From contig JAHOYZ010000026.1 in assembly GCA_019038695.1 (NCBI GenBank), forward strand, positions 121,626 to 170,584: DNA of 48,959 nt, in the 5' to 3' direction. This document shows, piece by piece, positions 36,395 to 37,450 of the stretch. Source of the stretch: Candidatus Zixiibacteriota bacterium. Lineage in GTDB: Bacteria > Zixibacteria > MSB-5A5 > GN15 > FEB-12. The notes beneath the pieces were generated by a model, which worked only from the letters and a program-made list of their open reading frames with translations, ran no database searches and had not been told where the DNA came from. Both the position numbers and the translations under genes were made by a program. Position 1 is the stretch's first letter. Each line of letters begins with the position of its first letter.

Positions 36395-37450
36395 ATGAAC
36401 CTGCCAAAACACCATGTACTAATCACTTATTGCGTGGAGTGAGGATTTTTGCCCCGGGCCACCAGTTTGGCGGCGACAATTGAATCAGCATTTGACGTCA
36501 AGGTCACACTTGTCAAAGGACACAATGGTATCTTCGAAGTATCCACTAATAATGACGTCTTGTATTCTAACAACAGTCAATGCAGCCAAGCCTTCCCGAG
36601 TGACGATCAGATTATAGAACAGATTGGACAATTCATTGGTCTAAAACCAAAAAGGGATATGTTGTCTGAACCTCAGTCTAAACAGGGGCAGAATCCACAC
36701 AACATTTTGCCTAATAAAAATACTGATAGCAGCATTACAGAACCACTCCCCATAATAATTCAAACCGAATCGAACTTAGACTGTGGATGTGGACCTGAAG
36801 GTTTGAGCTTATCTGGTAGTTCCGGGTGTTGTGACCCTAAAGAAAATAACTCAGGTGGAATGAACTATTCCAATTTTAAGAAATTGCTTTCTAGTGTAAT
36901 AATTCTAGCTGCTTTTGTTTTGGCAATGGTAGTTGTAGCAAAAAAGACAGGTTGGTACAATAATGATAATAGCCAGATTAGTTTAGCAGAAATTGATCCG
37001 CTAGCTTTATCTGGAGCAGGATGTGCTACTGCACAAGTGAAGGATGAATTGCTAACAGAGTTGGTTGGAAATCGGGAAGCAGTATTCGCGTTGCTTCCGT
37101 GCGATCACGAGGGACATACACAGGAACTCAGGGACAAAGTATCACCGGCAATTAACAAGCTTCAAGCTCAGGGCAAGCGCACTGATCTCGTCGTCGTCAA
37201 TCCATCCTCACCGGCCTACGCTCGGCTGATCGAGTTGCATACAGCTGAGTCTTTTCCATGTTTGGCGGTGATTGGTATGAGTTGCGCATCGTCCCTCCTA
37301 TCAGATGACTTTACCGAGGAGAGGTTATTTGGTGCGTTTGTGACGGCAACATCTCCGATATCCTCTTCTTCATGTTCTACACCCTGCGGGACTCAAACAA
37401 CGGGCTCAACATCAGATTCATCAATGGTTAAATCCTCGTGTTGTCCGTAG
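36395..37450 (+). CDS. SelW/Rdx-like selenoprotein fused to a membrane anchor and a thioredoxin-like domain (TGA-encoded Sec16)
   Basis: A 351-residue protein whose reading requires an in-frame TGA at 36440-36442 to be read as selenocysteine. The ATG at 36395 has a strong GGAAAGGAA ribosome-binding site. The first residues, ITYC-V-E-U-GFLPRATSLA, form the C-x-x-U redox motif of the SelW/SelT/Rdx family (C13, U16). The family hallmark continues to about residue 80 (IFEVSTNNDVLYSN, then FPSDDQIIEQIG). A linker with CGC (130-132) and CC (145-146) leads to one membrane helix (about 165-183). A thioredoxin-like domain follows at about 205-318, and the tail ends S-S-C-C-P (349-350). Without recoding, only a TTG at 36449 would start the frame, leaving out the active site and the ribosome-binding site. 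It lies 39 bases after arsR and 13 before the next gene. I infer a thiol/selenol redox or Hg-handling role. Confidence 0.85.
36440..36474 (+). promoter_or_regulatory. Selenocysteine TGA codon and candidate bacterial SECIS hairpin
   Basis: TGA at 36440-36442 is followed by a hairpin with arms GCCACC (36458-36463) and GGCGGC (36469-36474), which pair except for one A-C mismatch. The 5-base loop is AGTTT, with G-T at 36465-36466. Its place about 22 bases downstream of the TGA and the GU in the loop match bacterial SECIS elements, which SelB recognises. Confidence 0.6.

Follow-up and report, generated by a model that had tools for sequence, protein, structure and literature searches.

Genes and features at the locus

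The window, by which we mean the whole stretch of DNA that was analysed (48,959 nucleotides from a Candidatus Zixiibacteriota bacterium), contains an hgc operon in which HgcA and HgcB are encoded by adjacent genes, both scoring over curated cut-offs. The operon is real by these measures, whereas its methylation activity is inferred. Its features, all on the forward strand, are the following.

35980-36022, +: putative promoter and operator, with TTGACA (35980-35985), TATATT (36002-36007) and the palindrome ATTCGATATATGTCGAAT (36005-36022) over the arsR start codon
36014-36355, +: ArsR/SmtB-type metalloregulator, Cys-rich (CCGLEKPCSTDAGMGAC); HTH_metalloreg 61.8 bits, cut-off 55
36395-37450, +: gene read as a selenocysteine (Sec) protein of 351 residues, Sec16; order Rdx, Cys-rich linker, one transmembrane (TM) helix, thioredoxin-fold domain, Cys-rich tail
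36416-36625, +: Rdx/SelW-like domain, residues 8-77; Pfam Rdx and structure model
36440-36442, +: Sec codon TGA (motif CVEU), codon 16; in-frame read-through and homologues
36458-36474, +: bSECIS hairpin, GCCACC-AGUUU-GGCGGC, apical loop AGUUU at 36464-36468
36782-36832, +: Cys-rich motif CGCG...CC between Rdx and the helix; on the cytosolic side if the N-terminus is inside
36866-36946, +: single predicted TM helix, residues 158-184
37031-37354, +: thioredoxin-fold domain without a conserved CxxC, then a Cys-rich tail ending SSCCP; structure model and alignment
37464-38165, +: CcdA/DsbD_TM-like membrane protein; DsbD_TM 40.4 bits, cut-off 27.1
38187-39335, +: hgcA, Cys form (NVWCAAGK); 438.9 bits, cut-off 275
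39345-39644, +: hgcB, Cys form (GVGCAYG, C-terminal CC); 114.3 bits, cut-off 99

No in-frame TGA is present at the HgcA or the HgcB site of the window, both of which read Cys. The CcdA-like protein fell far under the cut-off of NF045694, the model for TsoB, the rhodanese/DsbD selenoprotein of the Tso system (17.3 versus 805 bits). The ArsR protein is probably the regulator of the operon. The core of the palindrome, TTCGATATATGTCGAA, is found in identical form ahead of arsR in the hgc operons of five lineages (window 36005-36022; L129 1138-1153 on the reverse strand; L026 8523; L028 9036; L078 8954). It sits between a TATATT-like -10 box and the arsR ATG, which it overlaps, and arsR is apparently leaderless. 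This palindrome is likely the self-operator of the hgc ArsR, an inference from the DNA letters. The hgc-linked ArsR proteins also carry a Cys-rich insertion, CCGLEKPCSTDAGMGAC in the window and CCPPGEACCTGEEMSAC in a relative of the same order (genome G070), which might serve as the metal sensor.

Reading of the in-frame TGA

The initial annotation placed a SelW/Rdx-like selenoprotein within the hgc operon. It held that ordinary gene calling would start past the TGA and drop 18 residues, and that the Sec reading would restore an ATG, a ribosome-binding site and a C-x-x-U motif. These statements were borne out. The standard-code frame in the list of open reading frames starts at TTG 36449 and lacks the first 18 residues. 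With the TGA read through, translation begins at ATG 36395 (ATG-AAC-CTG) with GGAAAGGAA just 5' of it (36381-36389), includes CVEU, and continues in an open frame until the TAG that ends at 37450. The ATG and the ribosome-binding site are present solely 5' of the TGA.

The source genome (G000, 96% complete) has all four of the genes whose absence would have weakened the proposal. Profile searches recovered selA (410 bits), selB directly 3' of it (291 bits) and selD (378 bits), each over its cut-off, and the tRNA-Sec gene selC was called by both Rfam and ARAGORN. The SelD of this genome is itself a Sec protein, with a TGA read through in SCAGUASK (G000:C10:49792-50715).

Once two duplicates were removed, the homologues occupied 100 distinct places, and TGA stands at the Rdx site in 94 of them. 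The four sets gave 25 of 26 places with an in-frame TGA in the same phylum, 13 of 13 in Calditrichota-type genomes, 5 of 5 in other hgcA-bearing genomes (after the two duplicates were dropped) and 51 of 56 in a sample of 395 genomes from the phylum to which a named deltaproteobacterial MAG belongs. Every TGA-bearing homologue whose sequence was read had U at the same CxxU position. In the two Cys forms read (L123 and L212) the motif is CxxC, so that Sec and Cys alternate in the usual way; position 16 is U in most homologues and the second Cys of CxxC in the Cys forms read. Because TGA recurs in so many homologous places, a sequencing error or a pseudogene at this codon is ruled out in practice.

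The bSECIS element

The hairpin with GU in its loop, which the initial annotation had put about 22 bases past the TGA, was confirmed at 21 nt, counted to the apical loop. It comprises five pairs and one A.C mismatch, has an energy of -8.2 kcal/mol, and falls within all published limits for bSECIS elements (loop of 3-9 nt with G in the first two positions, 16-37 nt from the UGA, stem of 4-16 bp, MFE <= -7.5; PMC13188914). At gathering thresholds, Rfam had no match in the window. By itself the window hairpin is unremarkable (z -0.9 against shuffles; P 0.11-0.17 against synonymous resampling), and therefore the case for a SECIS rests on the family.

That family consists of 25 members of the phylum, the window included, whose alignment 3' of the TGA is free of gaps. 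They share a hairpin of up to six pairs with a five-base loop, (A/G)GU(U/C)U, 21 nt downstream; one member has AGGUU. Across the 25 homologues the mean number of pairs was 4.96 of 6, compared to 3.76 +/- 0.14 in synonymous resampling, the mean energy was -9.9 kcal/mol compared to -6.5 +/- 0.45, and GU was found in 96% of the loops compared to 12%. Codon choice around the loop is fixed. All 25 have C as the last base of the codon 5' of the loop, though this codon encodes Thr, Ser, Ala or Val; the loop serine is AGT in 19/19 (background 10%), the loop glycine GGT in 5/5 (background 21%), and the leucine TTG or CTG in 25/25. At pair 21-33, formed by the wobble bases of two alanine codons, four sequences have G-C in place of C-G and two more have other standard pairs, and covariation in the hairpin exceeded that of all 500 shuffles. 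The second base of the loop is G (AGT, AGG, GGT or CGT) in all 73 Sec loci outside the window, two duplicates among them, whereas the Cys forms have TGG at this position. The related sequences are not independent, and hence the nominal probabilities are not to be multiplied. A chance hairpin is rejected on this family-level evidence, not on the window hairpin alone.

A rival account holds that there is no selenoprotein, the TGA being a stop or an error and translation starting at TTG 36449. In its favor, this is the frame that standard gene calling yields, and the window hairpin does not stand out from shuffles. Against it are the TGA in homologues, the conserved SECIS with its fixed synonymous codons, the complete Sec machinery of the genome, and the lack of an ATG and a ribosome-binding site anywhere but upstream of the TGA. 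This rival is all but excluded. Every check proposed at the outset that could be run (Sec machinery, U or C in homologues, published bSECIS limits) came out favorably. The Sec reading is strongly supported, in the absence of protein-level proof, and 36395-37450 very likely does encode a selenoprotein within a mercury-methylation operon (probability of roughly 0.98).

Domain organization of the protein

The read-through product matches Pfam Rdx (PF10262) over residues 8-77 with 48.4 bits (cut-off 22.6). Its score for the NCBIfam SelT/SelW/SelH model TIGR02174 is just under the threshold (32.8 versus 34.2), and for this reason we file it by Pfam Rdx and not under that subfamily; the G070 homologue passes (41.8). 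The AlphaFold2 model has a modest overall pLDDT of 63.5 and is confident solely over two domains and the helix. It places an Rdx fold at residues 4-86, with VIA-align Z of 11.7-12.5 to SelW-related structures (12.5 to 3dex), and assigns residues from about 211 to 320 to a thioredoxin fold (Z up to 11.3). In the latter domain the proline that precedes the third core strand is retained. The C-terminal region had no Pfam match in the window, and its relatives gave only weak ones below cut-off; the fold assignment came from structure prediction.

Residues before the helix are positive in the family (for example KSHRTIKTM and GKKSRIKIL), from which we infer an N-inside topology that would place the selenol in the cytosol. 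The corrinoid domain of HgcA is cytosolic, and so a cytosolic selenol fits the fusion of Rdx to HgcA described below.

Relatives of the protein and of its operon

In G070, contig C61 carries ArsR followed by a single open frame that encodes Rdx (CVEU), a short CC linker and HgcA (Pfam Rdx at residues 10-80, NCBIfam HgcA at residues 142-262), the HgcA being the Cys form. The contig ends within hgcA, the remainder of which lies on a second contig of this MAG that overlaps the first (98.4% over 370 bp). The G070 contigs coincide with the MAG of locus L025, 'FCB group bacterium isolate Gpa_11'. By RpoB identity the window genome is nearest to Zixiibacteriota-labelled MAGs and to G070 (64-69%), with other lineages at 57-60%.

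The same module is found with an arsenite methyltransferase. In G129, of the same class, the operon reads ArsR, an Rdx(U)-Cys-rich-TM-thioredoxin-fold protein, CcdA and ArsM (335 bits, cut-off 263); in G116 it reads ArsR, Rdx(U) and ArsM. As the module also serves an arsenite-methyltransferase operon, it is not mercury-specific. The expectation of the initial annotation that a selenol would be a functional fit for a mercury operon thus held in part. It is backed independently by the Rdx-HgcA fusion, and it needs widening to the arsM operon, with the role in methylation remaining an inference.

Three further observations concern these neighborhoods. The G129 protein (L125 8029-8994) has a second in-frame TGA in a Cys-rich motif, GUGCCGP, aligned to CGCG...CC of the window and followed about 19 nt on by a possible GU-loop hairpin; it is probably a double selenoprotein. 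At L041 (7952-11050) ArsM lies directly 5' of CcdA-HgcA, which again connects arsenic with mercury methylation via the same membrane protein. In two Chloroflexi-labelled hgc operons (L044 11054-11890 and L057 2773-3405) an ArsD metallochaperone domain is joined to HgcB in a fusion protein, both curated cut-offs being passed for L044.

Linkage of Rdx to hgcA is rare, with 2 cases in 102 hgcA loci, a few of which overlap (L019 and L148, for example). The 79 other named hgcA loci had no Rdx in the vicinity of hgcA; the eightieth, L025, begins inside hgcA, belongs to G070 and was left out of the 79. The non-Rdx part of the protein (a Cys-rich start and one helix, in some cases followed by the thioredoxin-fold domain) stands beside hgcA in 17/102 loci from many lineages, and CcdA in 18/102. 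The window protein is this widespread hgc-operon protein with Rdx joined to its N-terminus. Such Cys-rich single-TM proteins next to hgcA occur in many phyla, mostly with CcdA, and no Pfam model covers them (L019, L026, L030, L044, L047, L050, L051, L054, L057, L058, L065, L137, L138, L140 and L151).

Most Sec-Rdx homologues are stand-alone, without metal genes nearby in the stretches examined, and a search of a plasmid collection returned no match. In the Rdx tree the four metal-linked rows are clustered (4/500 shuffles as low) and are not shown to be one clade. G070 groups with the stand-alone G072 (93/86) and the window with two arsM-linked rows (89/66). Two separate recruitments of Rdx are possible, with weak support, and the tree is too weak to settle a single origin.

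A proposed tethered soft-metal carrier and its rivals

What is shown is the evidence for Sec coding, the operon, the order of the domains, the fusion to HgcA in a relative and a module shared with ArsM. Topology, metal binding, hand-over and the role of CcdA are inferred. The mechanism that we favor is a tethered carrier of Hg(II) or As(III), a proposal that could as readily prove wrong as right, there being no protein, metal-binding or methylation data. In such a carrier the C-x-x-U selenol of the SelW-like domain would lie on the cytosolic side of the membrane beside the Cys-rich linker, with the single helix as anchor and the thioredoxin-fold domain and Cys-rich tail outside. By exchanging ligands with low-molecular thiols, the ionized selenol would strip them of Hg(II) (or As(III)). 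Hg(II) would then pass via neighboring cysteines to the C-terminal cysteines of HgcB or to the HgcA site, and As(III) to the methyltransferase, while the CcdA-like protein would keep the selenol and thiols reduced.

Support for the carrier comes from G070, where an hgc-type ArsR precedes the in-frame fusion of Sec-Rdx with HgcA, from the tie of the Sec domain to two methyltransferases (HgcA and ArsM) that act on soft, thiol-loving elements, and from the recurrence of the Cys-rich TM protein with CcdA in 17/102 hgcA loci. The Cys-rich ends, the outer thioredoxin-fold domain with no conserved CxxC and the HgcB-ArsD fusions are further hints in its favor. Against it, the mostly stand-alone Sec-Rdx homologues indicate a redox role of a general kind. 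Electrons, and not metals, are what CcdA homologues usually transfer. It is also possible that a selenolate binds Hg(II) too tightly for easy transfer. Because Rdx is next to hgcA in so few loci, it is an accessory and not a requirement.

The main rival is a redox helper, in which the CxxU protein would be a reductase that keeps the cysteines of HgcA and HgcB (or ArsM) or the corrinoid path reduced, with electrons arriving via CcdA and no metal carried. In support of this, Rdx is a thioredoxin-like redox family, the partner gene encodes a CcdA/DsbD_TM protein, ArsM and HgcAB both need reducing equivalents (the source for HgcAB being unknown; PMC11588087), and the Sec-Rdx genes mostly stand alone. 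Against it, the extracytoplasmic thioredoxin-fold domain, the expected electron relay for CcdA, has no conserved CxxC, yet the Cys-rich ends are kept. These Cys-rich clusters and the HgcB-ArsD fusions of Chloroflexi hgc operons resemble metal handling; ArsD is a thioredoxin-fold arsenic metallochaperone. We consider the redox helper a serious alternative, though less likely than not.

A second rival is a protective sink, in which the selenol and cysteines would trap Hg(II) or methylmercury at the membrane without feeding the enzyme. Binding between selenium and mercury is very tight, and ArsR control and the association with detoxification genes such as arsM are consistent with a sink. The in-frame HgcA fusion puts the selenol by the methylating site, which a passive sink does not need, and one would also expect to see a sink in mer-type operons. 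On account of the fusion, this explanation is unlikely.

A bolder version of the carrier reading makes the SelW-type selenol domain a dedicated soft-metal chaperone for methyltransferases (HgcA and ArsM), once fused to HgcA, with selenium supply directly tuning the formation of methylmercury. We advance it tentatively, the odds being against it.

Relation to known systems and implications

SelW-like bacterial selenoproteins are a known family (PMC13188914). The window domain resembles the prokaryotic members (Rdx, PF10262) in its C-x-x-U after the first strand, its Rdx fold and its bSECIS. The known proteins are small and stand-alone, whereas the window domain is fused into a larger hgc-operon protein that has Cys-rich, TM and thioredoxin-fold parts. 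Haft & Gwadz 2023 (per PMC13188914 and PMC11588087) described Sec forms of HgcA (CU) and HgcB (GVGU), which likewise place selenocysteine in methylmercury-forming genes; in the window, by contrast, a SelW-like protein distinct from HgcA and HgcB carries the Sec, and G070 has it in a SelW domain fused to a Cys-form HgcA. Operons of hgc with ArsR, arsM and other ars genes, ArsR 5' of hgcAB and the control of hgcAB by ArsR are also known (PMC7438021, PMC10349881), to which the window adds a SelW-type selenoprotein and one membrane module common to arsM and hgcAB operons. The CcdA-like protein is akin to CcdA/DsbD transmembrane reductases, as its DsbD_TM score over cut-off indicates, but its partner thioredoxin-fold domain has no conserved CxxC, and its gene is set between regulator and methyltransferase. 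The same lack separates the C-terminal domain from classical thioredoxin, whose fold it shares. The ArsD domain on HgcB (L044, L057) offers a parallel as a soft-metal domain of thioredoxin-fold size on an Hgc protein; it uses cysteines and is attached to HgcB, whereas Sec-Rdx is upstream of or attached to HgcA. Neither a SelW-type protein within an hgc operon nor a fusion of SelW to HgcA was found in the full text searched, a scope that left out most of the subscription literature, including the two closest selenoprotein papers. Thus, this operon and this family of selenoproteins are both known, and what appears to be new is their occurrence together, the joining of the domain to HgcA and the module common to arsM and hgc operons.

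Standard annotation truncates genes of this kind. The route of Hg(II) to HgcAB is open, as is the source of reducing equivalents (PMC11588087), and a selenol domain that is fused to HgcA in one bacterium and shares an operon with it in another is a concrete, testable partner. The selenium and mercury cycles are joined here at the level of genes, and one membrane module serves both mercury and arsenic methylation, its role in the methylation itself being inferred.
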